Positions 20,882 to 48,104 of a stretch of DNA of 52,276 nucleotides are shown here, in pieces. Each line of letters opens with the position of its first letter. Positions within the stretch are counted from its first letter, which is position 1. The notes under the pieces are model-generated. The model saw only the letters and a program-made list of their open reading frames with translations, had not been told where the DNA came from and did not search any database. The stretch lies in assembly GCF_012184425.1 (NCBI RefSeq), contig NZ_VTOW01000011.1, positions 1 through 52,276 of the forward strand. The letters run 5' to 3'. A program made the position numbers and the translations under genes. This DNA is from Candidatus Manganitrophus noduliformans. GTDB lineage: Bacteria > Nitrospirota > Nitrospiria > SBBL01 > Manganitrophaceae.

Positions 20882-20882
20882 A

Positions 20883-21557
20883 ATGCGGGTTCTCCTTGTA
20901 GAAGATGACGAGCGGGTTGTCGGTTTTATCAAAAGAGGGCTGGAGGCCGAGCACTTCCAGGTGGAAGTGGCGCCCGACGGGCTGAAGGCGATTGAAATGG
21001 CCACGTCTATTCCTTATCAAATGATCATTCTCGACCTTGCGCTTCCTTTAAAGAACGGCGATGAGGTTTGTCGGGTTCTCCGGGAGGAGAAGGTTCAGAC
21101 GCCGATCCTGATGCTGACGGCGAGAGACACGGTTCAAGAGAAAGTAGAGGGCCTGGCGATCGGCGCCGATGATTACTTGACCAAACCTTTTGCATTCGAA
21201 GAACTCTTGGCCCGGATCAAAGCCCTTCTCCGCCGCGCCGGGCCCTATCGGGAGGCAGTTTCCGAGCTGAGGGTTGCTGATCTTGTCTTAAACCAGGGGA
21301 CCCACGAGGTCCGCCGAGGGGACAAAGTTATCAACCTGACGGCGAAGGAATTCGCCCTTCTGGAATATTTAATGCGCCACCCCAACCGAGTGTTGAGCCG
21401 GACCGCGATTCTCGAACAGGTCTGGGGATACCAGTATGATACCTTCACTAATTCGGTCGAAGTCTATGTCCTTTATCTGCGTAAAAAGATCGATCACGGG
21501 CATTCGAAGAAACTCATTCAAACCATTCGGGGCGTCGGTTACAAAATTTCCGACTGA
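20883..21557 (+). CDS. OmpR-family response regulator
   Basis: The 224-residue protein has a receiver domain (VEDDE at 6-10, phospho-acceptor Asp51 in ILDLALP, LTKPF) and a C-terminal winged helix (NLTAKEFALLEYLMRHPNRV ... IRGVGYKI), so it is a DNA-binding regulator activated by phosphorylation. It starts 1 bp after the kinase stop and is surely its partner. The frame is open back to 20568, but only as a shadow of the kinase. A second, shorter receiver paralogue follows. Confidence 0.95.
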   Translation: MRVLLVEDDERVVGFIKRGLEAEHFQVEVAPDGLKAIEMATSIPYQMIILDLALPLKNGDEVCRVLREEKVQTPILMLTARDTVQEKVEGLAIGADDYLTKPFAFEELLARIKALLRRAGPYREAVSELRVADLVLNQGTHEVRRGDKVINLTAKEFALLEYLMRHPNRVLSRTAILEQVWGYQYDTFTNSVEVYVLYLRKKIDHGHSKKLIQTIRGVGYKISD

Positions 21558-24150: not shown

Positions 24151-24528
24151 GTGGAGTCATCTGAAAAGGTCGCTCCTTTGGGAATCTCCCTGGACGCGCC
24201 GAGGGAGAAGGAAGGGGTCTATTCAGACGTGCTGGTGAAGATAACCGATGGGACCGCCCTGCCCGGCGATATCCTGGTCTATGCGAGTTCGCCGGAGGAA
24301 CTGGAAGTGCAGAGAAAGAAGTTCGGGAAGAGTGGGGTCGGACGTGTGGTGATCGTTGTTGGATCGCACGGTTGGGAGGCGATGATGCCGGGGGGAAGGA
24401 CGGGGCCGGTTATCGACGATTGCTGGAGGGATGGGGGGGCGCTGGACACAGGGCCGAGCGTTAAAGGCTGTCTACCACATCAAGGGGATCATAATGTCCA
24501 GCCCGACCCGGATAAAGGATGGAAGTGA
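24151..24528 (+). CDS. Hypothetical 125-codon frame, possibly a gene remnant
   Basis: A GTG-started frame reads ESSEKVAPLGISLDAPREKE and continues to VVIVVGSHGWEAMMPGG with plausible composition for about 80 residues, then ends in low-quality sequence overlapping the ABC transporter start by 10 bp. No family recognised and no good ribosome-binding site. It may be the remains of a gene that decayed together with the P-loop gene just upstream. Confidence 0.3.
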   Translation: MESSEKVAPLGISLDAPREKEGVYSDVLVKITDGTALPGDILVYASSPEELEVQRKKFGKSGVGRVVIVVGSHGWEAMMPGGRTGPVIDDCWRDGGALDTGPSVKGCLPHQGDHNVQPDPDKGWK

Positions 24529-33074: not shown

Positions 33075-34193
33075 ATGAAAATCGCATTGAAGTTTTTTGG
33101 TGTCGCTATGATCGGGCTCGCCGTCGCCGCCTGCGGCGGTGGAGGGAGTGACGACGGCGGATCTGACGCGATCGCGCCGACATTGGGGATCACGTCGGTT
33201 CAGAAGGTGGGGGCGACGGCAATACCGAATGGGAATGTGTCGTCGAAACCCGTTTTTGCGTCGAATTTCCTGAGAAAGGGATGGAGCCTAGCCCCCCGGC
33301 AGGCCTTTGCTCAGCCGGCTTCTTGCCTTTCGGACGCCCCGACCTCTTTTGATGTCTCCGGCGGCAAGATCTGGGTAAAACAGGCATACGCCATTCTAGA
33401 TGAAGTCGAATTCAACCGGGAGCCGTCGACGACGCCGAGCCCGGAGTTTGGCCCCTTCGCGCTTGATCTGACGAACAGTGACGACACCGTCGGGGAGGCG
33501 ATCACGGTTGACGTTCCCGAGGGGAACTATAGCGGCGTCAAGTATCGGATCAAACGGGTCGACGATACTAATGACGATGGAACGCCGATGGTTATCCTGA
33601 ACGTGACCGATTCGGCTGCCTTCAAGAATCTCATTATGAATACTGATGTCAAGCGCCGGCCGAGCGTCTGGATCGAGGGGGTGATCGGCGTCGGATCAGA
33701 GGCCGCGGGATTCTCTTCTTGTAAAGATTTCACTTTCGTCACCGATCACCGCTGGGAGGTGACCGTTCCCTTTCAGAGTTCGTCCGCCGGATCGACGGCG
33801 CTTGACGCCGTTCTTCTCTTCGATCTGTCGGGAGCATTCAACGCGGCACTGGCCGGATCGAGCGCGGAGGCCCTGTCGGCAGAGGTGGGACAGTGCTCCT
33901 CTGAGGTCGTCGATCGGGGCGAGTGCATGGGACCGGTGTATCTAGACGGTCGGACCAAGGATGAGCGTCACGGAACGCCTCTTGCTAAAGTCATTACCGG
34001 CGAGTTTCCCAAGCATACGGATGTCTTCGTGCAGTCCGTCACCGCCGCGAGGGGCTTTGACGACAATCCATCTATCTCCGACATGGTGGACAGCACCGCT
34101 CCCGCGGGAACGACCGTCATCGACGACAGCGCCGTGCGGGTGAGCGGCGACGACAACCCGTCTGTTTCGGACCTTGCCGAGACACCCGGGTAA
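33075..34193 (+). CDS. Secreted lipoprotein of unknown function
   Basis: This 372-residue protein has a lipobox (GLAVAACGGGG, Cys about residue 20) and a Gly/Asp-rich linker. A block CLSDAPTSFDVSGGKIWVKQ and following strands resemble, weakly, DUF4382-type lipoprotein domains. The C-terminus has two related units, FDDNPSISDMVD and GDDNPSVSDLAE. AAGGAG seven bases before the ATG supports the start. A sigma-54-like promoter lies upstream and a strong GC-rich hairpin follows the stop, so it looks monocistronic. Function unknown. Confidence 0.82.
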   Translation: MKIALKFFGVAMIGLAVAACGGGGSDDGGSDAIAPTLGITSVQKVGATAIPNGNVSSKPVFASNFLRKGWSLAPRQAFAQPASCLSDAPTSFDVSGGKIWVKQAYAILDEVEFNREPSTTPSPEFGPFALDLTNSDDTVGEAITVDVPEGNYSGVKYRIKRVDDTNDDGTPMVILNVTDSAAFKNLIMNTDVKRRPSVWIEGVIGVGSEAAGFSSCKDFTFVTDHRWEVTVPFQSSSAGSTALDAVLLFDLSGAFNAALAGSSAEALSAEVGQCSSEVVDRGECMGPVYLDGRTKDERHGTPLAKVITGEFPKHTDVFVQSVTAARGFDDNPSISDMVDSTAPAGTTVIDDSAVRVSGDDNPSVSDLAETPG

Positions 34194-34367: not shown

Positions 34368-35660
34368 ATGAAAAAACTGATGGTTTACTCGCACGACACC
34401 TTTGGCCTGGGGAACATCCGTCGAATGCTCTCGATCTGCAAATATCTGATCGACTCCATCCCCGATCTCTCGATCCTGATTGTTTCCGGCTCTCCGATGG
34501 TTCATACGTTCCGGATTCCGCAGCGGCTCGACTACATCAAACTTCCCTGTCTTCGCAGGACCGATCGGGAAGGTTATTCGGTCAAGTACCTCGGCACCGA
34601 CATCGGGGAGACGATGCGGCTCCGATCCGAGCTGATTCTTTCCGCGGTTTCCCACTTCAGGCCTGACCTTTTCCTGGTTGACAAGAAGCCGTACGGGGTG
34701 AAGAAAGAATTGAAAGGGGTGCTGAATTATCTGAGGATACATCTCCCGGAGACCAAACTGGTCCTCCTGCTCCGGGATATTCTCGACAGCCCGGAGGCAA
34801 CCATCCAGACGTGGAAACAGAATCGATACCAAGAGGCGGTCCGTCTCTTTTACGACCGCGTCTTCGTGGTCGGCTCGCCCGAGGTCTTCGATCTCAGAAA
34901 GGAGTATCGGCTGTCGCCCTCCGTCTCCGAGAAGGTGCGGTTTTGCGGCTATATCCGGCGGGAGGTCGGCCTCAAAGGGGGGGATGCCGTCCGGAAGGAG
35001 ATCCAATTGAGGGATGAGAAGCTGGTCCTGGTGACCCCGGGAGGAGGGGAGGATGGATACCGCCTAGTGAAGACCTATCTCTCCGGCCTGGAGCATCTCC
35101 CGGCCGGCCTGAAAATCCGCAGTCTGATCGTCTGCGGGCCGGAGATGCCGGAAGCGCAGAGAAAAGAGCTTTTCCAAGCGGCGGCCGGACGGCCGTCGGT
35201 GCAGATCACCGAGTTCACTGACGATTTGATGAGCTACATGGAGGCGGCTGATGTCGTCCTTTCCATGGCCGGATACAATACGGTCTGCGAGATCCTGTCC
35301 CAGAAGAAGCGGGCGATCGTGGTCCCCCGGGTTCACCCGGTGAAGGAGCAGCTCCTCCGGGCGGAGCGGATGGCCCGGCTCGGACTCCTCCGGATGGTTC
35401 ATCCCGATCGCCTCACTCCGCAATCGCTGGCCGGCGCGCTTCTGGAGGAACTCGGCCCACAGAAAGCCGGGTCTCCCTCCCCATCCCCTTTGGAACTGGA
35501 AGCGCTTTCCCGGATTCGGGATGGGGTCTTGCGGTTTTTATCCCCCTCCGAGTCGGCGGAAAATGGAGATGGGACCGTGTCCCGGTTGGATCGTCCGGGT
35601 CCCGCGCCATTGCGTGATTATGTTCGGCCGCTTCCCGTCAGCAGGTCAGGTGAAGGATGA
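34368..35660 (+). CDS. MurG-like predicted glycosyltransferase (COG4671 type), copy B
   Basis: The 430-residue paralogue of 22206-23495 opens with the identical YSHDTFGLGNIRRMLSIC and shares the VTPGGGEDGYRL and AGYNTVCEIL motifs. It is first in a long run of glycan genes. Its ATG has a GAGGGTGAGAAG-type ribosome-binding region. Its last four bases overlap the next gene (ATGA), indicating translational coupling. No sigma-54-like promoter was found in the 174 bp upstream, in contrast to copy A. It should transfer an unknown sugar to a lipid- or oligosaccharide-linked acceptor on the cytoplasmic side. Confidence 0.84.
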   Translation: MKKLMVYSHDTFGLGNIRRMLSICKYLIDSIPDLSILIVSGSPMVHTFRIPQRLDYIKLPCLRRTDREGYSVKYLGTDIGETMRLRSELILSAVSHFRPDLFLVDKKPYGVKKELKGVLNYLRIHLPETKLVLLLRDILDSPEATIQTWKQNRYQEAVRLFYDRVFVVGSPEVFDLRKEYRLSPSVSEKVRFCGYIRREVGLKGGDAVRKEIQLRDEKLVLVTPGGGEDGYRLVKTYLSGLEHLPAGLKIRSLIVCGPEMPEAQRKELFQAAAGRPSVQITEFTDDLMSYMEAADVVLSMAGYNTVCEILSQKKRAIVVPRVHPVKEQLLRAERMARLGLLRMVHPDRLTPQSLAGALLEELGPQKAGSPSPSPLELEALSRIRDGVLRFLSPSESAENGDGTVSRLDRPGPAPLRDYVRPLPVSRSGEG

Positions 35661-36817
35661 GGAAAGATCCCCCTTTCAAAGTCTGTTATCTCTTGAAGCG
35701 CTATCCGCGTCTTTCCCAGACATTCATCCTCAATGAGATGCTGGCGTTGCAACGGCAGGGGTTCGACATCACCGTCGTGGCGTTGAAGCCGTCCGGAGAA
35801 GAGATCGCGCACGAGAGGTACCGAGACCTGAAGGCGCCGGTTCACTATCTCTCCATTCTCCCAGCCGCAGCACCCGCGATCCGATCCGTTGCCGAGGAGG
35901 ACGTTTCTCTTTCGGCCCAAGCGGAGCGGATCGCCTCCCTCGTCGCCCGCTTAGGAATCGATCACATTCATGCTCATTTCGCGACGTGGGCCGCCGCTGC
36001 TGCATCGCTGGCGAGCGAGTGGACCGGCATCCCTTTTAGTTTCACGGCCCATGCGAGGGATATCTACCATCAGAGCGTCGACGGAAAAGCCCTCGGTCGG
36101 ATGATCGGAAAAGCCCGCTTCGTCGTCACCGTGAGCGAATTCAACAAGCGGTATCTCGAAGGGCTGATTTCACCGCGGGAAGGGCGCGTCGTCCGTCTCT
36201 ACAACGGCGTTGATCTGCAACAGCTGCGGCCGACGGATCAGGAAAAAGCTCCCGAGCTGATCGTCGGCGTCGGACGGCTGGTAAAAAAGAAAGGGTTTCA
36301 TGTGTTGATCGACGCCTGCAGAATTTTGAAAGAGAAGGGCCAGCCGTTCCGGTGCATCCTGATTGGAGAAGGGGAAGAGCGGGTTGACTTGGAGAAGCGT
36401 ATCGAGATGTATTCTCTCGAAAAGGATCTGTTCCTGTTGGGCGCCCGGACCCAAAACGAGGTCATCGAATGGGTGCGAAGGGCGTCGGTCTTCGTCTTGC
36501 CGTGCATCGTCAGCGAGGATGGCGATCGCGATGGGCTCCCGACCGTTCTTCCCGAAGCGATGGCTCTCGGGACGCCGGTCGTTTCAACCCCCGTTTCCGG
36601 CATCCCTGAAATCGTCCGGCACGGGGAGACGGGGCTCCTCGTCGGCGAGAAGGACCCGCAGGCGCTTGCCGATGCAATCGAGGACCTCCTTGCGTCGCGG
36701 GAATTGCGAACCCGTTTGACGGCCGCCGCCCTGCTAACGGTTCGGAAGGATTTTTCCCTTTCGGAGAATGTGGAACGGCTCAAGGAGTTGTTTCTCATGG
36801 GAGGAGGAGAGGAATGA
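35657..36817 (+). CDS. GT4-family glycosyltransferase
   Basis: This 386-residue GT-B enzyme resembles WcaL-like group-1 transferases. The N-terminal domain has YLLKRYPRLSQTFILNEM and DHIHAHFATWAA; the C-terminal domain has VGVGRLVKKKGFHVLIDAC and the donor-phosphate motif in DGLPTVLPEAMALGTPVV, matching the EX7E pattern. It should use a nucleotide sugar to extend an exopolysaccharide or lipid-linked glycan in the cytoplasm. The start overlaps the preceding stop by four bases, as does its own end with the next gene. Confidence 0.92.
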   Translation: MRKDPPFKVCYLLKRYPRLSQTFILNEMLALQRQGFDITVVALKPSGEEIAHERYRDLKAPVHYLSILPAAAPAIRSVAEEDVSLSAQAERIASLVARLGIDHIHAHFATWAAAAASLASEWTGIPFSFTAHARDIYHQSVDGKALGRMIGKARFVVTVSEFNKRYLEGLISPREGRVVRLYNGVDLQQLRPTDQEKAPELIVGVGRLVKKKGFHVLIDACRILKEKGQPFRCILIGEGEERVDLEKRIEMYSLEKDLFLLGARTQNEVIEWVRRASVFVLPCIVSEDGDRDGLPTVLPEAMALGTPVVSTPVSGIPEIVRHGETGLLVGEKDPQALADAIEDLLASRELRTRLTAAALLTVRKDFSLSENVERLKELFLMGGGEE

Positions 36818-38094
36818 GTCTGTCTGTCGGGAAGGCAACTGCGGGGCCCCCTGTCTGGCTGCGGAAGCGGTCTTTTGAGGAAATGAAACGCACTCTCGCC
36901 CAAGGAGAACTCCTGCATTCCCTTCAGGGGCTTTTTCAAGAAAGTGGGGAGACTCTCACCGGAATTTCCCTGGCCGAGGAGAAATATGAAGAGGAGTGCA
37001 TTTTCCTGGTGTTGCTCCTTGAATTTAAGGGGCCCGGCTGCCGGATCGTCTGCCCGAGAGAGTGGGTTTTTCAATATCTCCTCGACGATGATCTCTTCGG
37101 CGCAGGCCCGATCCGCTTCTGGTCTTACCCCGAAGATCCGGAACTCCCGATCCTGGCAAGACTTCATTCCTCTCCAGGTTTTTTTCAGGAGACGGCCTGG
37201 GAGAGTTGCGCTGGAGAGGTTTTTCCCGAAGACGGCGATTTCTGCATGCAGCGGCTCCTCTACAACCCGGGGCGGAGGGCGACCTTTCTCGTCGTTTCAG
37301 AGAAGACGGGAAGAAAGTTTATCCTGAAAGCCGTCCGGCCGAAGGAGTGGAGGGTCTCCCTGGAGAAGCTGGAATGGATGGACCGCGCCGGACTTCACAA
37401 GACAATCCTCTTTCCCCGCATCGTCGCATATTCCTCCCGCGATTATCTCTTCCTCTACGACTACCTTCCCGGTGTTAGGATCGATCGGCTGGGGCCGGAG
37501 CGTCGTGAAGAATTAAAGACCGGCATTTATGAAGAGGTCATCATGCTGTTGACTGAGCTTCATCAGACAACACTCCCCGGCTTGCCCCGATGGAGCCCGC
37601 ACCGGGAAATCGGTGCGCTCTCCGCTCTCACGGACCTTCTTGAAATCCGCGCCCCCGGCGTGGCCGCCGTTGTTCAACCGATGGTCGAAGAGATCGCCGA
37701 TGATTTGATCCAGAGGAATCAGACCAACACGCAGCCGATTCATCACTCCTTTTCCGCCAAACACCTTCTCTATTATCCCGACAGGGGGAGGGATCGGCGA
37801 CTGGCCGTCCTCGACTGGGACAGCGCCGTCTTGGGACCGCAAGAGAAGGATCTCGCGTCGTTCCTGGCCAGCTTCTCGGAAGGGGAAGAAGAGGCCCTCT
37901 TCTTTATCGCGCAGTACCGCCGCAAGAAGGGCTCCGAACTGGATCTGAAGTTGATTCACCGGTTCATTCAAGTCAGACGCCTGATAAAGATTTGCCGCAA
38001 GGTCTTGAGGGGAGACTCCTCGGATGAGAGAAATGCAAAAGCTCTGAGGGAGCTTGACCTACTCGCAAATGAAAAACCGAGGCTCGGACCGTGA
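36814..38094 (+). CDS. APH-fold phosphotransferase-like protein lacking the catalytic Asp (predicted pseudokinase)
   Basis: This 426-residue protein has an N-terminal region of about 130 residues of unknown role and a C-terminal aminoglycoside-phosphotransferase/choline-kinase fold. The DxD motif is present (LDWDSA, Asp334 and Asp336). The catalytic loop, normally HGDFHxxN, reads HHSFSAKH at 310-317: the catalytic Asp is Ser312 and the metal-binding Asn is His317. It is therefore probably inactive as a kinase, and may bind a substrate or regulate one of the three intact homologues at 40112, 42432 and 45151. It is coupled to both neighbours by overlapping start/stop codons. Confidence 0.78.
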   Translation: MSLSVGKATAGPPVWLRKRSFEEMKRTLAQGELLHSLQGLFQESGETLTGISLAEEKYEEECIFLVLLLEFKGPGCRIVCPREWVFQYLLDDDLFGAGPIRFWSYPEDPELPILARLHSSPGFFQETAWESCAGEVFPEDGDFCMQRLLYNPGRRATFLVVSEKTGRKFILKAVRPKEWRVSLEKLEWMDRAGLHKTILFPRIVAYSSRDYLFLYDYLPGVRIDRLGPERREELKTGIYEEVIMLLTELHQTTLPGLPRWSPHREIGALSALTDLLEIRAPGVAAVVQPMVEEIADDLIQRNQTNTQPIHHSFSAKHLLYYPDRGRDRRLAVLDWDSAVLGPQEKDLASFLASFSEGEEEALFFIAQYRRKKGSELDLKLIHRFIQVRRLIKICRKVLRGDSSDERNAKALRELDLLANEKPRLGP

Positions 38095-40148
38095 TGGAAT
38101 CGCAATGCGTCTTCATCGACAAAATCGATTGCATGCCGCCGGATGTTTTCCTGCGTCATTTCCTGACGCGGCGGAATGTGGCCTGTCCCGATCCGCCGAA
38201 GGCGACGGAGGCGCAGTTGGAGAACGCCAAAAAGATCGTCCAGAACCGCTTCGACTTAATCGGCGAGGAGGTCACCCTTCGGGACGGATTCTCGTGGAAG
38301 GAGAGTCCGAGCCACGATAAGGAGTGGCAGATCGCGCAACATAAGTTTTATTTCGCGGTTGACCTCATTCAAGCCTATCGGCACGATCGGGACCCGGTCT
38401 ACCTGAAGAAGTGGATCTCTCTGATCGATTCCTGGTTGGAGGAGATGGGGTCGGGATACATTGCCGCCAGCGACGCCCAGGTGGAGGCGAAACGGATCGA
38501 ACACTGGGTGAACTCGTTTCTGCTGTTGCGGGGACTCCCCTGCGAGCCGTTTCTGACGGCGGGCTTTCTGCGAAGGTGGCTCGCGCGGATTGCCGAGGAG
38601 ACGCGCTACATTTCCACACATCTGAAGCCGGTCCGCAACCACCGAACCTTTCAATTGTATTCCGTGTTCCTGGTCGGTGTCGTCTTTCCGGAGTTTCGCC
38701 TTCATTCCGATTTTCTTGAGACGGGGGGGAAGAAGCTGACCGAAAATCTGCTGACCGACTTCCTTGGAGACGGCGTTCATGTAGAACTCTCGACGCACTA
38801 CCATCAGTTGGTCCTGGAGACCGCCCTCTCGTTCATAGAGTGGGCGCGATTGAACTGCTTCCCTCTCGACGATCTCCTTCTGGATCGGCTGCATCGGGCC
38901 CTCGCGTTCAGCATGTACATGCAATGGCCGAACGGCGACATCCCTCTGATCAACGACTCCGACAATGGAGATCATCTTGAACTGCTAAGAAGGGGAGGAC
39001 GGCTCTTTCACAACGACCGTCTTCTTTGGGCAGGCACGCTCGGGCGTGAAGGGATCCCCCCTGAATCGCCTTCCCGGCATTTCAGCCGATCAGGATATTT
39101 TGTTTTCTCGGACGGTTGGGGAGAAGATCCTGCGACTTACGCGCGCCGTCAGCATGTCTTTTACGATTGCGCGTTGTTGGGGGAGGGAAGCCACAGCCAT
39201 TACGATCTCTTCAGCTTCTGCTACTACGTGAACGGGGAGCCGGCGATCATCGACCCGGGCCGGTATACCTACTCGTCCGACCCCGACCCGGAGGGAATCG
39301 ATTGGCGCGGAAGATTCAAGAGCACCGCCTTCCATAATACCGTCTCAATCGATGGAAAGGATCAGACCCGCTATCTCTCCCGGACCAAACATGGGCCGGA
39401 GGTGGAGATCGCGGAGAAGGCCTTCTCCATTGGAATGGAATCGGACTGGGTGTCGGCCCAGGCGCGAAGCGCGGAGTATTCCCCCCGGCATACAAGACTG
39501 TTTATTTACATGTGCCGGGAATATCTCTTTGTCCATGACGATGTTGAAATCGAGGATGGGGTTCCACACAACTGTGCGCTCTCCTTCCATTTATCCGAGA
39601 AGTGGGACGGCCTGGTCTATTCCGAGGCGAGTGAAACGGAATGGGTCGTCCGAACCCCGCTGTTGCAGGTGCGGTCGCACCGGGCGCCGGATGCGGCGCT
39701 GTCGATCGAATCGGGATGGGTTTCCCGTCAATACGGCGTCAAAAGGAGGGCCCCGGTGATCCGGATCACCCGGACTGCGGCGCAGTCGCTCTCTTTTACG
39801 ACCGTGCTGGCGCCGACCGCCTCTCCGTCACCTCTCATCTCCGCGATGAATCAGGCAGCGTCCCCTGCGGAAAAGGGTTGTCTCTTTCGTGTGGACGGAA
39901 TGAAAGGAGGTGAGCCCTTTCATGATTGGTATCTCTTCCCGGATAAAAGAACGGCGTATTTGCAAACCGATCGACTCGTTTTCCGAGGCGGCTTCTTGGC
40001 CTTTCGACAGAACCGCAGTGGAAAGATAGTGCATCTCCTGGCCCACGGAGCTGAGTCGATCCAGATCGAAGGAGTTCCTCATTGGCGGAGCGAAACACCG
40101 AAGGAGGTCGAGTGGTCGTTCGGCCGGTCGACTTCTTCCCCTTTATAG
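38094..40148 (+). CDS. Heparinase II/III-like polysaccharide lyase (alginate-lyase fold)
   Basis: The 684-residue protein has an alpha/alpha-toroid domain (to about 330) and a beta-sandwich C-terminal domain, as in PL12, PL15 and PL17 lyases. Likely active-site residues include NHRTFQ (182-187), HYH (235-237) and GEGSHSHYD (His367, His369, Tyr370). I see no signal peptide, so it may act in the cytoplasm, unlike most secreted lyases; a role in trimming or recycling a cluster intermediate is possible. ATG 38094 overlaps the upstream stop (TGATG). A uronic-acid or aminosugar polymer is the most likely substrate, and would suit the alginate-type porins here. Confidence 0.82.
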   Translation: MESQCVFIDKIDCMPPDVFLRHFLTRRNVACPDPPKATEAQLENAKKIVQNRFDLIGEEVTLRDGFSWKESPSHDKEWQIAQHKFYFAVDLIQAYRHDRDPVYLKKWISLIDSWLEEMGSGYIAASDAQVEAKRIEHWVNSFLLLRGLPCEPFLTAGFLRRWLARIAEETRYISTHLKPVRNHRTFQLYSVFLVGVVFPEFRLHSDFLETGGKKLTENLLTDFLGDGVHVELSTHYHQLVLETALSFIEWARLNCFPLDDLLLDRLHRALAFSMYMQWPNGDIPLINDSDNGDHLELLRRGGRLFHNDRLLWAGTLGREGIPPESPSRHFSRSGYFVFSDGWGEDPATYARRQHVFYDCALLGEGSHSHYDLFSFCYYVNGEPAIIDPGRYTYSSDPDPEGIDWRGRFKSTAFHNTVSIDGKDQTRYLSRTKHGPEVEIAEKAFSIGMESDWVSAQARSAEYSPRHTRLFIYMCREYLFVHDDVEIEDGVPHNCALSFHLSEKWDGLVYSEASETEWVVRTPLLQVRSHRAPDAALSIESGWVSRQYGVKRRAPVIRITRTAAQSLSFTTVLAPTASPSPLISAMNQAASPAEKGCLFRVDGMKGGEPFHDWYLFPDKRTAYLQTDRLVFRGGFLAFRQNRSGKIVHLLAHGAESIQIEGVPHWRSETPKEVEWSFGRSTSSPL

Positions 40149-41362
40149 AATCGGGACATCCTTTCTATCCCTTCCTCCGGCGGTTTGAAGCGCCTTTAAA
40201 CGAGGAGGGACTCTTCGACCTGCTTCAAAAGAAGCGGGAGAGAGGGGAGAAGGTTGTGGTCCATGCGGAAATAAAAGGGAAGCGGCGACTGGACGGTGGA
40301 TGGACATTGGACCGATTTTACTGGTCGCTGCAATCATGGGATCAAACCGGCACGATCGATTTTCGAGCCCGCATGCTTCACTACGCGGCCAAGACCGATC
40401 GGATGGAGTTTTGCGACTTCCCGATGGACCCATATTTGAACTCGCTCTCCTCCCTGTTTGGCGGAATGGATCGCAGTGCTCACCGTGTCGATATTCTTCG
40501 GTATGTCCCTCTTCGGAGGCTGACGTTTCGACTCGTCCCCCTGTCGGGGAACGGGTCCTCCGCCATTGGGAAGTTCAAACGGCGGTCGCGGCTGCGGGAG
40601 GCGTATGATCGGCTGGCAGCCGTTTATCTAGCGGTCGCCCGTTCGAGTGCGCCCTTCTCCGTGGCTGCGCCGCGGGGGATCGACGAAGATCGCTCCCTTT
40701 TCTTTCAGAAGGAAGTGCCGGGTCGCGACCTGGCTTCTCAGCTCGATTCCGGAAACTTCCGGGAATCGCTGGAAGGGCTCGGCGGTCTGCATCGGGATCT
40801 CCATCGACTTCGGGCGGTGGAGGTTCCTGTATGGGATTTAAACGCGTTTATCCAACAGCTTCGCGACGACATCGACTGGATCGCTTTTTTCCAGTCGGCG
40901 CTCGAGCTGTTCCTCAGGGAAACCCTGGCCCTCCTGTTGCGAAATGTACCCAAGGTCGATCCGGCGGCGTACACCTTCTGCCACGGCGACTTTGTCTGCT
41001 CCCAGGTATTAAGAGAAGGCGACCGCTGGTCGCTGATCGATTTCGACCTCTGCAAAAAAGGGGATCCGTACCTGGAGCTCGCGATGCTGACGGCGTCTTT
41101 GAAGTATGATGTCCCTCTGTTTGAAGAGCGGATCATCGGCGCAAACGGGGGGAAGGCGGATTTGCTCGAAGACGGCGTTGCTGCCTATTTAGACGGATAT
41201 CAGAAGCGTGCGGGGGAAACCCTTTGTCGACAGAGACTGATCTGGTGTCGGGTCTGTGCTGAAATCTATTACCTTGCGCTGATGTTCAAGAAAAATCGAT
41301 TTCATCCGGCGATGCTCCGATACGCAGTCGAACAACTTCACGCGTTGAGACAACAAATATGA
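40112..41362 (+). CDS. APH-fold sugar kinase-like protein
   Basis: The 416-residue product carries an intact phosphotransferase loop, HGDF at 291-294 (catalytic Asp293), and a metal-binding DFD (IDFDLC). AAGGAGG precedes GTG 40112 by four bases and fixes a start inside the end of the lyase gene (37-bp overlap); the frame is open back to 40082. Relatives with this fold phosphorylate small alcohols and sugars, such as N-acetylhexosamine 1-kinase. In this operon a sugar or oligosaccharide is the likely acceptor. The first 170 residues are not part of the recognisable kinase core. Confidence 0.8.
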   Translation: MVVRPVDFFPFIESGHPFYPFLRRFEAPLNEEGLFDLLQKKRERGEKVVVHAEIKGKRRLDGGWTLDRFYWSLQSWDQTGTIDFRARMLHYAAKTDRMEFCDFPMDPYLNSLSSLFGGMDRSAHRVDILRYVPLRRLTFRLVPLSGNGSSAIGKFKRRSRLREAYDRLAAVYLAVARSSAPFSVAAPRGIDEDRSLFFQKEVPGRDLASQLDSGNFRESLEGLGGLHRDLHRLRAVEVPVWDLNAFIQQLRDDIDWIAFFQSALELFLRETLALLLRNVPKVDPAAYTFCHGDFVCSQVLREGDRWSLIDFDLCKKGDPYLELAMLTASLKYDVPLFEERIIGANGGKADLLEDGVAAYLDGYQKRAGETLCRQRLIWCRVCAEIYYLALMFKKNRFHPAMLRYAVEQLHALRQQI

Positions 41363-42435
41363 GTGGTGCGGGAGATAAGCCGTTGAAATCGCCAGGTCGG
41401 TTTCTGTTTCAGTTGCACAATCGTCGGGGAATGGGACATCTGATGCGCGGTCGGAACATCGCCGCGGAGATCCGCGCTCTGCGGCCCTCTGCGGAAATCC
41501 TCTTTTACACCCGAAGTGCTCCGCCGGCCCCGTGGGACCCAGACATCCGCCTCTTTGTCGAGAATCCCGATAGAGGCTCACGCTGGCACGATGCGGTTCT
41601 CTCGTTTTCGCCGGACGTCTTGGTTTACGACACCCTCCTTTCCGGAGAGATTCGGTGTGAACCCGATTCCCCTTTCCTGCGGCGGGTCTATGTAATGCGA
41701 AAATCAAAGGAATCGAGGCAAGCGGAAATCTTTGATAACCCGGCGCTGGATTGGGTCGACCGGATCGTCATTCCTCACCTGCCGGAGGAGTTCTCGGTCG
41801 ATCTTCCTGTATCGCTTCAGCGAAAGAGTATCTATGTCGGGCCGATCGTCCGGCTTCCGCGGAAAGAGACGCAATCGGCATTGAAGACGAAATACCGGAT
41901 CGCAGAGGGAGAGTATCTCCTCACTTCAACGACGGGAGGAGGAGGATTTGCGGACCATGCCGAATCTTTTTTCGAAACGGTATTCGAGGTTCACCGGCGA
42001 CTTTGCCCGCAAATGCCGAACCTGAGGCATCTGGTCGTGACGGGGCCGAATTTCAAGGGTTCCCTCCGCCCCCTGGAGAGAATGGAGATCGTCTCATATG
42101 AACCGGATTTGATCGATCTGATCGCCCTGTCGGATATAGTCATCGCCGAAGGGGGCTACAACACGGTCAATGAGATCCGCCTGACCAAGACGCCGGCCGT
42201 TTTCCTTCCCAGCGACCGGAAGTTCGATGATCAGGAGGAGCGGGTTCGATCCCTGGAGGAGAAGGGGCTTGCCTTCGTCTTTCCAGAGCGGTCATCGACG
42301 GTCGCTTCCGAGATTTCTCGTCTCTGCGCGTCGGCGTCGGTTCTGGAACAGATCCGGCGAAACTACGAATCGGACCGGATGGTCATCGGCAACCGCACAG
42401 CGGCGGAGGCCATTGTGGAGTGTATTGATCGATGA
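41359..42435 (+). CDS. MurG-like predicted glycosyltransferase, third family member
   Basis: This 358-residue GT-B protein is related to the two COG4671-type copies but shorter. It has HNRRGMGHLMRGRNI near the N-terminus (the Gly-rich acceptor loop), STTGGGGFADHA in the donor half and AEGGYNTVNEIRL as the nucleotide-sugar signature. It lies between two APH-fold kinase genes and is joined to both by ATGA overlaps. Donor and acceptor are unknown. Confidence 0.84.
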   Translation: MSGAGDKPLKSPGRFLFQLHNRRGMGHLMRGRNIAAEIRALRPSAEILFYTRSAPPAPWDPDIRLFVENPDRGSRWHDAVLSFSPDVLVYDTLLSGEIRCEPDSPFLRRVYVMRKSKESRQAEIFDNPALDWVDRIVIPHLPEEFSVDLPVSLQRKSIYVGPIVRLPRKETQSALKTKYRIAEGEYLLTSTTGGGGFADHAESFFETVFEVHRRLCPQMPNLRHLVVTGPNFKGSLRPLERMEIVSYEPDLIDLIALSDIVIAEGGYNTVNEIRLTKTPAVFLPSDRKFDDQEERVRSLEEKGLAFVFPERSSTVASEISRLCASASVLEQIRRNYESDRMVIGNRTAAEAIVECIDR

Positions 42436-43367
42436 AGGTGAATCTGGCCGGCGCCGCCAAACGAATCTTGGAGCGGATCAAGATGGACGGAGACCGTCCC
42501 GTCCGATGGGTTGCGAAGGTTCTCAGCGAGACCCCGGGTGAACGAAAGGTGGTTCAATACCGGTTCTTCCCCCGGGGGAGGCAGGCTCATTCCAAGCCGC
42601 TATTTTGTTGCGTTGCGAAGTTCTATCAGGATGAAAGAGGAGAGGAGACCTCGCGCGTCATGGAGACGCTGTCAAAGGAGCATCAACGACCGGTCTCTCT
42701 TTTGGCAGTTCCTCGCTCTCTATATTATGATCCGGGGGCGCGTTTCGCGGTTCAACAATTCGTCGAGGGGGTCCCGTTTCCCGAACTGATCACTCTGCCC
42801 AACAGCCGTCGATATTTTGTCCTCGCCGGGAAGGCGCTTGCCGGCCTCCATGCACGGGCGGTCCCGGTGGGAGAGATCAGATGGCTTTCTGATCATCTCA
42901 TCGATCTTATTCATCCCCACCCTCTCCTCCTTGCAGAGCAGATCCCTTCGTATCGGTCGCGCATCGATTCGATCCTCAAGGCGTTGCACGAATGGGAAGA
43001 GAGAGTGGTCGATCACCGAGCGCATGCCCCAATCCACCGCGATTTTCATCTAAGACAGCTCTTTTATGGAGATGATCGTGTTTGGCTGGTCGATTGGGAC
43101 CTCTTCGCAAAGGGGGACCCGGCCCTCGACGTCGGGAATTTTATCGTCTATTTGACGACCCGTCTGCCGGAGCGCGCCGCCTCTTCGATCGATGCATTTC
43201 TGGAAGGGTATTTCTCCCTACAGCCGGCCGATCTTCTGAAAAGGGTGCCGCTCTATCGCGCTTTTACCTTTCTGCGGCTTGCCTGCAAGCGGTTTCGACT
43301 CAAAGAGGAAGATTGGGAGGAAAAGGTGGAAGGCCTCCTCTTTCGAGCCGAGCGGGCGCTGCGATGA
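42432..43367 (+). CDS. APH-fold sugar kinase-like protein
   Basis: The compact 311-residue member of the phosphotransferase family has HRDFH at 202-206 (catalytic Asp204) and VDWDLFAKGDPALDVGNF as the metal site. The HRD form of the loop recalls protein kinases but is also seen in APH enzymes. It lacks the extra N-terminal domain of its homologues here, so it is closest to a minimal sugar or choline-type kinase. Both ends overlap neighbouring genes by four bases. Confidence 0.82.
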   Translation: MKVNLAGAAKRILERIKMDGDRPVRWVAKVLSETPGERKVVQYRFFPRGRQAHSKPLFCCVAKFYQDERGEETSRVMETLSKEHQRPVSLLAVPRSLYYDPGARFAVQQFVEGVPFPELITLPNSRRYFVLAGKALAGLHARAVPVGEIRWLSDHLIDLIHPHPLLLAEQIPSYRSRIDSILKALHEWEERVVDHRAHAPIHRDFHLRQLFYGDDRVWLVDWDLFAKGDPALDVGNFIVYLTTRLPERAASSIDAFLEGYFSLQPADLLKRVPLYRAFTFLRLACKRFRLKEEDWEEKVEGLLFRAERALR

Positions 43368-44536
43368 GAGATCGAACGATGAAACGGTTAAAGGTGGCGC
43401 ATGTGATCAACAGCATTGGCCTGGGAGGGGTCCCGGCCGCCGTCTACCATCTTTTGGAGGCCCTTCCGCCGGAGCGCTATGAACTCTCCCTCTATACCCT
43501 GAAACGGTACTCCGACCATGCCGACGTTCGGGAAGAGGTGGCGGAGCGGTTTCGCCGTCTCGGCATCCCTATTTTTTCCCCGGACCGGGATGAAAAAAAG
43601 TTTCAGGTCGTGGCGCAGCTTTGCGAATGGATCCTGCGGGATCGAATCGACCTCCTCCACACCCACTCGTACAAGCCGAATCTTTACGGCCGTCTCGCCG
43701 GAGTTTTATGCAGGGAGCGGGGGGTGAGAATCGTCGCCCACTATCACAACCAGTACGACGATAAATGGGAGCGGGACGGAAGTCTCATCTATGATCGACT
43801 TTTAGATCGCTTCTCGGACCGGTTGATCGCCTGCTCGGAGTCGGTCCGGGAGCACCTTGTGCAACGAGTCGGCCTTCCCTGGGAGCGGATCGATGTGATC
43901 CTCAATGGAGCGGATCTCTCCCGGTTTCAGCCCCGGGAGGATGCGCAGCGGGTCAAGGGGGAGATGGGCCTTCCGTTGGACCGCCCGATCGTCGCGGTCG
44001 TCGGAAGGATCTCGGAACAAAAGGGCCAGGACGATTTTATCTACGCGGCAAAAACCATCCTCCGACAGGTTCCGGAGACCCTTTTCCTCGTCATCGGCGC
44101 CGCTGATGAGGCGGAGCGGCTGGTTCAATTGCAGCGTCTTGCCCAGGAGCTCGGGATCGAAAAGGAGATTATCTTTACAGGATACATCGCCGATATGTCG
44201 AAGATATACCCGCTCATAAATGTACTGGTCGTCCCTTCCCGATGGGAGGGATTCGGTCTCGTCTTGGTCGAAGCGATGGCGGCCGGAAGGGCGATCGTGG
44301 CGACGCGCGTCGGCGCGATTCCGGAGGTGGTCGTTGCCGGTGAGACGGCCCGGCTGGTTCCGCCCGGCTCCCCTGCAGCGATCGCCTCCGAGGTCGTCTC
44401 TCTGCTTCAAAATCCGGAGCGGGCGAGAAAGATGGGAGAGAGGGGGATTGCGCGGGCCGCTGACTTCTCCTGGAAACGGGCGGGGATGGAGCTCGACCGG
44501 ATTTACGAGGATCTGCGGAGGGGAGACGCGGGATGA
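43364..44536 (+). CDS. GT4-family glycosyltransferase
   Basis: The 390-residue GT-B enzyme starts MRDRTMKRLKVAHVINSIG from ATG 43364, which overlaps the upstream stop. It has GLGGVPAAVYHLLEAL, a His in LLHTHSYKPN, VGRISEQKGQDDFI for nucleotide binding, and the EX7E-type segment in WEGFGLVLVEAMAAGRAIVA. An alternative start, ATG 43379, is in frame. This is a typical group-1 transferase for polysaccharide or glycolipid assembly, different enough from the other GT4 at 35657 to use another linkage. Confidence 0.92.
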   Translation: MRDRTMKRLKVAHVINSIGLGGVPAAVYHLLEALPPERYELSLYTLKRYSDHADVREEVAERFRRLGIPIFSPDRDEKKFQVVAQLCEWILRDRIDLLHTHSYKPNLYGRLAGVLCRERGVRIVAHYHNQYDDKWERDGSLIYDRLLDRFSDRLIACSESVREHLVQRVGLPWERIDVILNGADLSRFQPREDAQRVKGEMGLPLDRPIVAVVGRISEQKGQDDFIYAAKTILRQVPETLFLVIGAADEAERLVQLQRLAQELGIEKEIIFTGYIADMSKIYPLINVLVVPSRWEGFGLVLVEAMAAGRAIVATRVGAIPEVVVAGETARLVPPGSPAAIASEVVSLLQNPERARKMGERGIARAADFSWKRAGMELDRIYEDLRRGDAG

Positions 44537-45141
44537 AGGAGGGGCGGATTTTCCTAATCCGACATGGGAAAACGGAATGGAACGGCGAGCGCTATTTGGG
44601 ATGGGAGGACGTTCCACTGAGCGAAACCGGTAAAAAGCAGGCAGATGAGATTGACCTCGCATTGCAGAACGAACGGATTGATATCATCTATTCAAGCCCG
44701 CTGACCCGCGCGGTGGAGACGATCAGTTCGTTTGCTCAAAAAAGAGGCATTCCGGTCTACACGGCAGAAGATTTGAGAGAACTTCACTACGGCCGATGGC
44801 AGGGATTATGTAAGTCGAAGCACAAGCTGAATGTCATCCAGCAGTATCGTGTTTCTCGGCTTCCTCAGGGGGAGAGCCTCTTTGATGTCTATCTCCGGGC
44901 CGTCTGCTTCCGCGGCAGATTGGAATCGGATTTGGGAGCGGGGAAGAACGTCGCCGTCGTCGGGCATTTTTGGAGCAATAGAATGCTGGAGGGGGTGATT
45001 CGTCGCGTCCCGTTCAAATCGATTCTGGATCAACCGGCCTATCGGCCTAAAAACGGGTCTCTGCTTCAAATGAAATACAGGGTGGAGGCCGACGGGGAGC
45101 TCTGCATCTCGTCTGCGTCTTTTGTGGTACAGGGGTTTTAA
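44533..45141 (+). CDS. Histidine phosphatase (phosphoglycerate-mutase-like)
   Basis: The 202-residue protein has the RHG motif (Arg10, His11, Gly12; LIRHGKTEWN), Arg59 (SSPLTRA), Glu83 (LRELHYGRW) and the second catalytic His145 (VVGHFWSNR). All expected active-site residues are present. It should remove phosphate from a small molecule or sugar phosphate in the cytoplasm. Among four APH-fold proteins it may reverse or proofread a phosphorylation step. It overlaps the upstream GT4 gene by four bases and lies 9 bp before the last kinase gene. Confidence 0.93.
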   Translation: MKEGRIFLIRHGKTEWNGERYLGWEDVPLSETGKKQADEIDLALQNERIDIIYSSPLTRAVETISSFAQKRGIPVYTAEDLRELHYGRWQGLCKSKHKLNVIQQYRVSRLPQGESLFDVYLRAVCFRGRLESDLGAGKNVAVVGHFWSNRMLEGVIRRVPFKSILDQPAYRPKNGSLLQMKYRVEADGELCISSASFVVQGF

Positions 45142-45150
45142 GGAAATCGG

Positions 45151-46512
45151 ATGAATGTGAAATGGAACCACCTACAGCGAGGAGCGAGGAGTCCCTTCGG
45201 GAAAACCCATCGGAACGTTTCCCCGGATCCCTTTTATGGGCAGGTTGATGAGTTTTATGATCAGGCGCATGTCCTCTCCCACCTGAAGGGCACCCTCGGG
45301 GATCATTGCGTTCCCGACCGATGTGAAATCGTCAATGTGAGGTATTACTTCAAGAGGTCGTTCCAGGTAGTTTACAAGCTCTACGGGAAAGAAGACCCTA
45401 CAATTTTGACGGTGTTTTTTCTACCGCAGGGCGAGAGCGCGAAGCATTACCGGGAGAAGCTCGCCGCAGTGACGAATCGCGTCCGTGTGATTCATTTTCC
45501 TTCCTGGAATGCAGTCGGGTGGGTTTTTCCTGAAGATCCGACCCTTCGCGCTCTTCAAAAGATGACGGATGAGGGGAGGTTGAGAAGCGGGTTGGGTCGA
45601 TGCATCCGCCGTTTCCTTAAACCCGGACCGATTCGCTGGGATGTGATGAACTACCATCCGGAGAGACGGTGTGCGCTTCGGTATCTCCTCTCGGAGGGAG
45701 ATTATACGTTTGTCGGAAAAGTCGCGTCGAGTGAATCGACTGTAACGGCGCATCGAAATTTGATGCGCCTTTGGGGGTGGTCTTCTCGGCGATTCAGGAT
45801 TCCTGAACCGCTCGGGTTGGAGGACGAACAGGGCATCCGTTGGGAATCGTTCATCACGGGCAATACCATTGGTGATCTTTTTTCAGAGATCTCCCTGAGC
45901 CCGTTGATGAAGATGGCCGCCTTCGATCTGTCAAACCTCCATCAGATCGGGATGGAGGATCTTCCACTGAATGATTCGAATCAGATTCTCCTCAGGTTGG
46001 AAAAGAAGATCATGCCGGTCGTCCTTCAGAGATTATCTCCGCTCGGGCCGTCCCTTGAGAATGTTTACCGCCTACTGGTTCAGAAGGCTGGGCTGTTGCC
46101 CGACAGCCGTGTCATGACGATCCACGGAGATTTTCACGCCGCCAACATTCTGTTTGACTCCGACGGGTTGACCTTCATTGATATGGACAGCCTTTCCCTG
46201 GGGGATCCGGCCTATGATCTTGCGTTATTTGGAAGTCGTCTTTTGCTCTTGGCACTCCTGGAAGGAGCCCGAATGAATGAAGTTGCAGAGGCCGTCGCCG
46301 GATTCCCAGGAACATACGAGGAGCTGTCCGGAACCGCCATTCCGGATCGAACCTATGCATGGTATTTGGCGGCGCTCCTTGTCGGGCGACAGCTCAAAAC
46401 CTGCATCAGGCACTGTGCGCCGGCGTTGGAAGACCTTGCTCCGGCTTTGTTGCATTGTGCCAGGGAGACGTTGGAGCGAGGGCGTTTTGATGCGGCGATC
46501 ATAAGGAACTAA
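45151..46512 (+). CDS. APH-fold sugar kinase-like protein, two-part
   Basis: The 453-residue protein has an APH-like core with a fully canonical loop HGDFHAANIL at 325-334 (Asp327, Asn332) and DMDS for metal binding. Residues 1-200 are not a plain N-lobe: they include blocks (KRSFQVVYKLYG and CALRYLLSEGDYTFVGK) that look like two N-lobe-type sheets, so the gene may derive from two kinase modules. TAAGGA seven bases before the ATG supports the start. It ends the operon-like run begun at 34368. Confidence 0.82.
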   Translation: MNVKWNHLQRGARSPFGKTHRNVSPDPFYGQVDEFYDQAHVLSHLKGTLGDHCVPDRCEIVNVRYYFKRSFQVVYKLYGKEDPTILTVFFLPQGESAKHYREKLAAVTNRVRVIHFPSWNAVGWVFPEDPTLRALQKMTDEGRLRSGLGRCIRRFLKPGPIRWDVMNYHPERRCALRYLLSEGDYTFVGKVASSESTVTAHRNLMRLWGWSSRRFRIPEPLGLEDEQGIRWESFITGNTIGDLFSEISLSPLMKMAAFDLSNLHQIGMEDLPLNDSNQILLRLEKKIMPVVLQRLSPLGPSLENVYRLLVQKAGLLPDSRVMTIHGDFHAANILFDSDGLTFIDMDSLSLGDPAYDLALFGSRLLLLALLEGARMNEVAEAVAGFPGTYEELSGTAIPDRTYAWYLAALLVGRQLKTCIRHCAPALEDLAPALLHCARETLERGRFDAAIIRN

Positions 46513-46658
46513 AAGAGTGGGTCTGGTCGCTCATCGTGCGCCTGTAGGGTCTCCATCAAGTGAGCCTTTTCAACCGACGGGTCGCCCTCCACGATTCGTC
46601 TTCTCCGGAGCGCCATTCGCGAGAACATTTCGTGCGGATGGTGTCGAGAATGATGCTC

Positions 46659-46796: not shown

Positions 46797-48104
46797 TTGT
46801 TTTTTTTGATGGAAGGTCCATTTGCCTTTGCGAGGGAGATTCAACCGGCTGTCACGGAAGCGGACCAACCCGCTGCCGAAGAAACCGTCTCAAGCGCTTC
46901 TCTGGATCCGGACGCCTCACCTGCTTTACGATTCGAGGTAACGCCGCATCTTTCGATAGGAGCAAAGATGCAATTGAGTGTTCTAAGAAGAAGCAATCGC
47001 GATCTAAACAATAAGAAGGAAGACGACCAGAATCGAACTGAAACTACATTGGGCCTTGCGACAGAGGTCATTCCACGCACCGATATTGAAATATTCGCGG
47101 AGGCGCGGCTGACCGATCAGCGCTTCTTTATGGATGGGGAAGGGCAAACGACCGATGAAACCAAAGTCCGACTCAAAAGAGGATACATCCTTTGGAGGGG
47201 TGCCGTTTTCCCTGCAATTGATTTACAGGTGGGACGACAACGTTTTGCCGATTCACGGGAATGGATCTACGATGAAAACCTCGACGCCGTCCGCCTTAAA
47301 TTGAATAAAGACCTTTTTGCCTTGGAATTCTCCGTCAGTTCGAACCTGTTTGATCCCGAGGATCCAGAGGATCGAATACGAAACTATGTTGCCTATGCCG
47401 CCTATGAGCCGAGTAAGGGAGACAAAATTGCACTGTATTGGATTGCCCGGCACAGTCCAGGGGGAGACCAGAATCCCGAATTCGTCGGACTTTCCTGGAG
47501 AGGAAAATCTTTTCAGAACCAAAAGTATTGGCTGGATCTCGCTTCCATTTCAGGGCGGGATGGTTCTGTGAAGCTGCAAGGGTATGGGGCCGATTTGCGC
47601 TGGACTTACCTTTTCGATCAATGGATGGAGCCCTCCATCACCCTCGGTTATGCCTTTGGATCGGGCGACCCTAATCCGCTGGATGATGTGGACGGAAGCT
47701 TCCGGCAAACCGGGCTTCAGGACAACCAGGGAAAATTCAATGGGGCCGTGAAATTCAAGTACTATGGCGAATTATTTGATCCGGAACTGAGCAATATGAG
47801 GATCAGAACTTTTGGACTCGGAATCATCCCTTTTAAAAAGACCTCTTTGGATTTTGTCTATTACTCCTATTCGCTTGTCTATTCACATTTGGCGCCGAAT
47901 CACACCCTCCGGGATGTCGGCATTAAAAAGGACCCCTCCGGAAAATCGAAAGATCTTGGCCATGAGGTGGACCTTATCGTAGGATTGAAGATTTCTCGTT
48001 TGGCACGGGTGGAAATTTCGACGGCTGCTTTCATTCCTGGGAAGGCGTTTCCCGGTTCAGACAGCGCTTACTCCGGAGAGATGACTGTTCGAATTTTATT
48101 CTGA
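46797..48104 (+). CDS. Alginate-export (AlgE)-like outer-membrane barrel, copy B
   Basis: The 435-residue protein is a clear paralogue of 26307-27707: both share IDLQVGRQRFADSREWIYDE-type blocks, YGELFDPELSN and a C-terminal Phe (VRILF). TTG 46797 cuts into the signal peptide. In frame upstream the sequence reads KIKSTKTFILPLIGLFFLME, a complete signal region, and TAGGAG stands at 46743-46748, but no ATG, GTG or TTG follows at the right spacing (the codons are ACC GTC AAG ATC). The true start may be a rare codon or may have been lost. It would carry the glycan made by the preceding operon across the outer membrane. Confidence 0.82.
   Translation: MFFLMEGPFAFAREIQPAVTEADQPAAEETVSSASLDPDASPALRFEVTPHLSIGAKMQLSVLRRSNRDLNNKKEDDQNRTETTLGLATEVIPRTDIEIFAEARLTDQRFFMDGEGQTTDETKVRLKRGYILWRGAVFPAIDLQVGRQRFADSREWIYDENLDAVRLKLNKDLFALEFSVSSNLFDPEDPEDRIRNYVAYAAYEPSKGDKIALYWIARHSPGGDQNPEFVGLSWRGKSFQNQKYWLDLASISGRDGSVKLQGYGADLRWTYLFDQWMEPSITLGYAFGSGDPNPLDDVDGSFRQTGLQDNQGKFNGAVKFKYYGELFDPELSNMRIRTFGLGIIPFKKTSLDFVYYSYSLVYSHLAPNHTLRDVGIKKDPSGKSKDLGHEVDLIVGLKISRLARVEISTAAFIPGKAFPGSDSAYSGEMTVRILF

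Follow-up and report, generated by a model that had tools for sequence, protein, structure and literature searches.

A conserved but unnamed Nitrospiria locus, most likely for building and exporting a sugar-acid polysaccharide, unusually includes several small-molecule-type kinases and a polysaccharide-cleaving enzyme that lacks a secretion signal

Gene content of the operon

Ten genes (g1 to g10; Table 1) lie on the forward strand between positions 34368 and 46512 of the window, i.e., the stretch of 52,276 nucleotides analyzed here, which is a whole contig of Candidatus Manganitrophus noduliformans. All ten reading frames are free of internal stops and almost all junctions are 4-base overlaps or gaps of ≤11 bases, so that the tightly overlapping ten-gene operon proposed in an earlier sequence-only reading is real. 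Overlaps of 4 bases join g1/g2, g2/g3, g3/g4, g5/g6, g6/g7, and g8/g9, and gaps of 11 and 9 bases separate g7/g8 (with the g8 ATG at 43379) and g9/g10; g4 and g5 overlap by 22 bases or more, the start of g5 being uncertain (a TTG at 40082 is possible). Pfam assigns the genes to two GT28-type and two GT4 glycosyltransferases, four APH-fold proteins, one heparinase-III-like lyase, and one histidine phosphatase, in agreement with the three types of glycan enzyme and the phosphatase named in that reading. None of the ten proteins (0/10) carries a signal-like hydrophobic N-terminal segment, and all therefore appear to be cytoplasmic; no sugar nucleotidyltransferase that could use a salvaged sugar-1-phosphate was found among the ten genes.

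Table 1. Features of the glycan locus in the window
Feature	Position	Strand	Assignment	Support
Two-component system	19670..21557	+	Sensor kinase and OmpR-type response regulator, ahead of first GT28	PF00072 + PF00486
GT28 paralogue of g1	22206..23495	+	Opens upstream truncated copy	Protein 65%, DNA 70% identity to g1
ABC exporter	24519..26303	+	MsbA/HepA-type, fused TMD-NBD, upstream truncated copy	PF00664 + PF00005
AlgE-like protein	26307..27707	+	Outer-membrane barrel of upstream copy	PF13372 1.9e-30
Lipoprotein-like protein	33075..34193	+	Secreted, precedes g1	Conserved in Manganitrophus copies
g1	34368..35660	+	GT-B glycosyltransferase, GT28_C (MurG-like C-terminal half)	PF04101 4.6e-15
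g2	35657..36817	+	GT4 glycosyltransferase	PF00534 6.9e-42
g3	36814..38094	+	APH-fold, likely pseudokinase	PF01636 3.3e-14
g4	38091..40148	+	Heparinase-III (PL12)-like lyase	PF16889 + PF07940 (Hepar_II_III N+C)
g5	40127..41362	+	APH-fold kinase, Q-type (HGDFVCSQ..IDFD)	PF01636 1.7e-16
g6	41359..42435	+	Second GT28-type glycosyltransferase	PF04101 3.1e-9
g7	42432..43367	+	APH-fold kinase, Q-type (HRDFHLRQ..VDWD), short N-terminus	PF01636 4.8e-14
g8	43379..44536	+	GT4 glycosyltransferase, MshA-like	PF00534 4e-40
g9	44533..45141	+	Histidine phosphatase, branch 1, RHG motif kept	His_Phos_1 PF00300 3.1e-37
g10	45151..46512	+	APH-fold kinase, N-type (HGDFHAAN..IDMD), duplicated kinase N-lobe	PF01636 1.3e-13
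AlgE-like protein	46797..48104	+	Outer-membrane barrel	PF13372 3.6e-30

All four APH-fold proteins (g3, g5, g7, and g10) score above the Pfam cut-off, and the catalytic HxD and DxD motifs are intact in g5, g7, and g10. In g3, HHSFSAKH stands where HxDxxxxN/Q is expected, so that the catalytic Asp is missing, while the conserved Lys172 and the DxD at 334-336 are retained; g3 is thus likely a pseudokinase by its sequence, and the four APH-fold proteins first described hold as a fold assignment but include one that appears to be non-catalytic. The predicted structure of g10 (pLDDT 85) contains a strand/helix unit (57-125) that recurs at 161-233, an internal repeat also found by profile (E 2e-10). 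The Q-type motif seen in g5 and g7 is typical of maltokinase-like enzymes. The profile search with the kinases matched methylthioribose kinase and maltokinase among others, with only weak similarity, and neither profile comparison nor solved-structure and fold matches gave a clue to a substrate. The APH-fold sugar kinases (maltokinase, glucosamine kinase, N-acetylhexosamine 1-kinase, and methylthioribose kinase) share the PF01636 fold with the operon kinases, but g10 differs from them by its duplicated N-lobe.

The lyase g4 shares both Pfam domains with PL12 heparinase III (4MMH, 4MMI, and 4FNV), and its residues N183, Y237, and H368 align with N240, Y294, and H424 of 4MMH (4MMI was also aligned), the Asn/Tyr/His triad given for 4MMH in PMC12088678. 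Unlike heparinase III, g4 has no signal peptide and sits in a biosynthetic rather than degradative gene context; an N-terminal hydrophobic stretch is also absent from the other locus lyases that were read, suggesting that the lyase is probably cytoplasmic. With regard to the remaining enzymes, a profile search of the PDB with g1 retrieves MurG, the nearest solved structures to g8 are 3c4q/3c48, and the PDB relatives of g9 include phosphoserine and glucosyl-3-phosphoglycerate phosphatases. MshA acts on a sugar phosphate.

A conserved locus in Nitrospiria

The locus extends beyond the 34368-46512 interval to which it had been confined, as it includes an AlgE-like porin gene after g10, at 46797, and an ABC exporter with a second AlgE-like gene at 24519-27707. 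The porin gene at 46797 has a signal-peptide-like stretch in frame upstream, without a standard start codon before this stretch. The exporter at 24519 scores high against NCBIfam MsbA_rel and HepA, below the cut-offs of both (415.8 bits for HepA NF045513, with a cut-off of 725), and belongs to an upstream copy that is truncated and includes a frameshifted remnant. The lipoprotein-like protein that precedes g1 has no Pfam match and shows 67-76% identity to its counterparts in three further copies (L032, L033, and L043).

The gene order GT28, GT4, lyase, APH1, histidine phosphatase or pseudokinase, APH2, GT28/deacetylase, a second GT4, MsbA/HepA-type ABC exporter, and AlgE porin is common to Manganitrophus, Nitrospira, and sister families, and a complete chromosomal paralogue is present elsewhere in the same genome. 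The window operon is a divergent copy of this Nitrospiria locus. While g1 shares 81-82% identity with the chromosomal paralogue and with another relative (G005), similarity to the paralogue drops sharply after g1 (82%), a pattern that, from the sequence, looks as in a cassette swap. A GT4 and the PL12-like lyase are found downstream of the GT28, as in the family, with g3 intervening; g2 is 39% identical to the GT4 of the corresponding slot in the paralogue and g4 34% to its lyase. Further along, g6 had no match among the 57 other relatives searched, and g8 is 53% identical to a GT4 of G005 that adjoins a histidine phosphatase. The GT28L/deacetylase gene and the ABC exporter are absent from 34368-48104, the ABC gene being at 24519 instead. 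The operon kinases fall outside the conserved APH1 and APH2 clades (identity ≤25%) and match them only in signature type, so kinase roles may not transfer from APH1 and APH2; the long branches make their placement in this quick tree unsure.

Among 246 genomes of the phylum, GT28 was found in 13, the lyase in 12, and the kinase in 14, with pairwise overlaps of 12, 13, and 12; all lyase genomes (12/12) had both GT28 and kinases. The probability of such co-occurrence by chance is approximately 1e-18 or less, a figure that ignores shared ancestry. Conservation in other genomes, on which the sequence-only reading had staked its proposal, was thus found, and the recurrence of the gene combination in many genomes indicates that it is not due to chance. 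A proteobacterial locus (L121) has the order GT28-GT4-lyase-APH1-APH2-ABC. Of 80 related GT28 loci, which are mostly cyanobacterial, 20 carry a UDP-glucose dehydrogenase gene, usually immediately before GT28, suggesting that the glycan likely contains uronic acid; this gene was also found in a Nitrospirota locus (L045), and the 80 loci further include 12 with a GalE/TviC-type epimerase and 23 with an OprB porin.

The window contig shows partial synteny with a circular plasmid; its ends do not overlap, and its assignment as a plasmid thus rests on synteny. Composition did not support a recent foreign origin of the operon, GC and GC3 being similar to those of the paralogue. Neither Rfam families nor tRNA genes were detected in the window.

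Relation to named glycan systems

A literature search, including "GPMC system" and COG4671, found no name for such a locus, in line with the sequence-only reading, to which no named system with this exact gene set was known. The gene content led us to reject a classical capsule or alginate locus, along with a Wzx/Wzy locus, already discounted in the sequence-only reading together with ABC polysaccharide loci, and the Wzm/Wzt and alginate-synthase types. No Wzx flippase, Wzy polymerase, or initiating phosphoglycosyl transferase is present in the ten genes or the tested neighbours. ABC-transporter-dependent capsule systems (Wzm/Wzt or KpsMT with OPX) share the plan of cytoplasmic glycosyltransferases and ABC transport, but the exporter here is a fused PF00664 and PF00005 protein and the outer-membrane component an AlgE-like barrel; separate TMD/NBD subunits and an OPX protein were not found in the ten genes or the tested neighbours. 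Alginate-type synthase-dependent export (AlgE, AlgL) resembles the locus in combining an AlgE-like barrel (PF13372) with a lyase; in contrast, the lyase here is PL12-like without a signal peptide, an ABC exporter replaces the synthase channel, and no GT2 domain (i.e., no Alg8-type synthase) occurs in the ten operon genes. HepA/MsbA-type loci (e.g., for the cyanobacterial heterocyst envelope polysaccharide) share a fused TMD-NBD exporter and several glycosyltransferases, although the exporter here is below both family cut-offs while among the best NCBIfam matches; HEP loci are not known to include APH kinases, a PL12-like lyase, and AlgE.

Proposed function and alternative explanations

An exporter, a porin, a complete paralogue, and a plasmid context, all missed earlier, lead us to read the operon as the biosynthetic interior of one copy of a glycan synthesis-and-export locus, and we consider it fairly probable that this conserved locus serves uronate-glycan synthesis and export. 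The GT28 and GT4 glycosyltransferases would build, on the cytoplasmic side, a glycan containing uronic acid, which the MsbA/HepA-type exporter (24519 or its chromosomal paralogue) would carry over the inner membrane, with the AlgE-like barrel as its outlet. The lyase would probably trim or clear polymer before export (clean-up or length control) as a cytoplasmic counterpart of the periplasmic AlgL. For the kinase step, which we propose tentatively, the APH-fold kinases most likely would phosphorylate small sugars, either acceptors or salvage from lyase products, with the histidine phosphatase taking off the phosphate following glycosyl transfer and g3 acting as a non-catalytic partner. The likeness of g8 to MshA, and that of g9 to glucosyl-3-phosphoglycerate phosphatase among others, was counted in favor of uronate-glycan synthesis and export; the lack of a GT28L/deacetylase gene and of an ABC gene of its own in the operon was counted against it, as was the fact that the usual substrates of MsbA-type exporters are lipid-linked or small rather than long polymers.

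The kinases might instead phosphorylate the growing or finished glycan in the manner of LPS-core kinases, giving an exported product with phosphate on it, as first proposed; this is unlikely, even though each locus has two conserved kinase types at fixed positions between glycosyltransferases and the extra N-lobe could serve as a glycan-recognition element. The phosphatase adjoins the kinases in many copies, the solved kinase relatives act on small molecules, and, in the DNA examined, APH genes are absent from most of the cyanobacterial loci that share the GT/ABC core; the phosphatase and the APH-fold precedents would seem to fit small-sugar phosphorylation at least as well as phosphate on the glycan. 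It is also doubtful that a conserved double-N-lobe APH pair (N-type and Q-type, with phosphatase or pseudokinase between) phosphorylates the glycan or its precursor on a lipid and in this way controls a uronate phosphoglycan that is edited by the lyase and exported through ABC/AlgE, in an unnamed locus class that is partly plasmid-borne in manganese-oxidising Manganitrophus.

A small glycolipid or oligosaccharide may be exported rather than a polymer, with the ABC protein flipping a lipid-linked glycan and the barrel acting as a general porin. The ABC protein resembles MsbA, HepA, and PglK, and genes for a CDP-alcohol phosphatidyltransferase and an SDR protein adjoin several Manganitrophus copies. 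We nevertheless regard such a product as rather improbable, as the polysaccharide-lyase fold is conserved in the Nitrospiria loci, the AlgE barrels of alginate systems handle polymers, and the phosphatidyltransferase is missing beside some copies. Even less probable is that the duplicate in the window is decaying and contributes little, the chromosomal copy being the true pathway: the missing GT28L and in-operon ABC genes, the lost Asp of g3, the irregular start of the 46797 porin, and the truncated upstream copy with its frameshifted remnant are consistent with decay, but ten long intact reading frames with tight overlaps, active-site motifs kept in three kinases, the lyase, and the phosphatase, and a coding GC3 similar to that of the paralogue argue against it. 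Uptake and catabolism of an external glycan, with the lyase and kinases degrading it and phosphorylating its imported sugars, would fit a lyase paired with sugar kinases and the ABC importer near alphaproteobacterial relatives, but is very improbable given four glycosyltransferases, an exporter-type ABC protein, a lyase without a signal peptide, and the absence of an importer among the window genes tested.

If uronate-glycan synthesis and export is indeed the function, Nitrospiria, which include nitrifiers and manganese oxidisers living in biofilms and nodules, share a dedicated acidic-glycan export locus; speculatively, manganese could be bound at the cell surface by such an anionic uronate glycan. 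With its two APH-kinase types conserved alongside glycosyltransferases, the locus offers a testable handle on unassigned APH-fold proteins outside antibiotic resistance, and a signal-peptide-less lyase within a biosynthetic locus raises the question of length control before export. Regulatory genes also accompany the locus, which was counted in favor of this function: of 71 GT28 genes, 33 have a response regulator gene no more than 4.5 kb upstream, as compared to 72 of 550 other genes, and GGDEF-EAL proteins are encoded on the flanks of the window locus.

The ten-gene operon

The sequence-only reading had described ten tightly joined genes in about 12 kb, encoding four APH-fold proteins, glycan enzymes and a phosphatase, and both parts of this description held. 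Ten uninterrupted ORFs were read on a single strand, with nearly all junctions presenting a gap of 11 bases or less or, mostly, a 4-base overlap; Pfam assigned four glycosyltransferases, two of GT28 type and two of GT4, along with four APH-family proteins, one heparinase II/III protein and one branch-1 histidine phosphatase, every one above its curated cut-off. As N-terminal inspection found no signal-like hydrophobic N-terminus among the ten proteins (g1 to g10 in order), the entire operon looks cytoplasmic.

Alignment of the lyase, g4, with heparinase III showed that Asn183, Tyr237 and His368 are kept; these correspond to Asn240, Tyr294 and His424 of 4MMH (PMC12088678). Among the kinase-fold proteins, g5 and g7 contain the motif HxDxxxxQ and g10 contains HxDxxxxN, while g3 lacks the HxD Asp. 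The predicted structure of g10 (pLDDT 85) shows an N-lobe-like unit present twice (57-125 and 161-233), a repeat backed by profile comparison (14 sequences).

Features of the window and of related loci
Location	Feature	Context
34368-46512	Ten-gene operon	
46740-46810	Signal-peptide-like stretch of AlgE-like gene	No preceding in-frame ATG/GTG/TTG start
22206-27707	Truncated second copy, upstream	GT28, ABC and AlgE kept around frameshifted remnant
23496-24518	Frameshifted NTPase-like gene remnant	Between GT28 and ABC exporter; no Pfam match
27604-28431	Lipoprotein-like ORF, two Big_5 Ig-like domains	DNA of the two domains 87% identical
28428-30013	SDR and CDP-alcohol phosphatidyltransferase pair	Kept beside C1 paralogue and one GAC2 plasmid, not the other GAC2 plasmid
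30112-30417	Short GDT1/TMEM165-family (cation/Mn transporter) gene	Adjoins glycan locus, also in GAC1 and GAC2 plasmid copies; host is a manganese oxidiser
596-3148; 48170-49555	GGDEF-EAL proteins	Either flank of region
C1:1870525-1885600	Complete paralogue, same genome	Lipoprotein, then GT28, GT4, lyase, APH1, APH2, GT28 with DUF2334/deacetylase-like fusion, GT4, ABC exporter, AlgE
L041:16783-18441	APHbig, about 550 aa (and relatives)	Weak APH match, no HxD motif; fills slot held by histidine phosphatase in other loci
L033:13381-14394	Radical SAM/SPASM protein	Beside histidine phosphatase in some Manganitrophus copies of locus

Conservation in Nitrospiria and beyond

The paralogue's gene order was found again across Nitrospiria, most copies having a histidine phosphatase or the pseudokinase-like APHbig between the two conserved kinases, APH1 and APH2. 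Among 246 sampled genomes of the phylum, 13 have GT28, 12 have the lyase and 14 have the kinase; all 12 lyase genomes also had GT28 and kinase (hypergeometric values near 1e-19, ignoring shared ancestry), with matches about 20 kb or less apart in most of them. The combination is conserved in other genomes, the check that the earlier reading had called for.

Scanning the collection with a GT28 alignment gave 80 loci, mostly from Cyanobacteria, plus Acidobacteria and Pseudomonadota. Because many loci end at contig edges, gene counts are lower bounds: a second GT28 in at least 62, an ABC exporter in at least 50, GT2 in at least 44, histidine phosphatase in at least 27, OprB porin in at least 23, UDP-glucose dehydrogenase (usually directly upstream) in at least 20, and the lyase and APH1 in at least 8 each, mainly in Nitrospirota. 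A proteobacterial MAG locus (L121) has the lyase and both kinases, and alphaproteobacterial plasmid loci have an importer and another ABC exporter. A response regulator lies upstream of GT28 in 33/71 cases, compared with 72/550 for the remaining genes in these loci.

Proposed function

Lyases resembling g4 act on uronic-acid polymers, in agreement with the UDP-glucose dehydrogenase of related loci. Synthesis and export of a uronate glycan is the best-supported account, and we consider it probable: the glycan would be made in the cytoplasm and acted on by the lyase ahead of export, for which an MsbA/HepA-type ABC protein would work with an AlgE barrel. Fold and profile matches of the kinases are all to generic APH-fold kinases and indicate no substrate. 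More tentatively, the kinases might phosphorylate either small acceptors or sugars recovered by salvage, and the phosphatase would work after them; MshA and glucosylglycerate synthesis are precedents for such a scheme. The phosphoglycan pathway proposed earlier, in which the APH-fold kinases phosphorylate glycan sugars, appears less likely. That reading knew of no named system of this composition, and searches of open-access papers likewise turned up none; we would place the window locus, as a variant, among the ABC-dependent systems for glycan export.

Divergence and plasmid relatives

In DNA, g1 and the paralogue share about 82% identity as far as roughly position 35,500, beyond which identity is about 51-63%, near the global-alignment level for very distant sequence. 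None of the four window kinases exceeds 25% identity to those of the conserved locus or is placed inside the APH1 or APH2 clade in a quick tree, and g6 had no match in the other 57 relatives at E 1e-10. The simplest reading of this divergent interior would be a cassette exchange behind the conserved g1.

The window, 52,276 bases long, spans an entire contig in a genome of 5.17 Mb, and its closest annotated records are from Candidatus Manganitrophus sp. GAC1 and GAC2. Parts of it align at 68-86% to a circular Manganitrophus plasmid record of 34 kb, 'plasmid unnamed5' (regulators, SDR, CDP-alcohol phosphatidyltransferase, GDT1, lipoprotein, GT28, ABC and AlgE), a plasmid link that consists of partial synteny. 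Copies of the glycan locus occur on four plasmid records from Manganitrophus. The flanking GGDEF-EAL proteins suggest c-di-GMP control.
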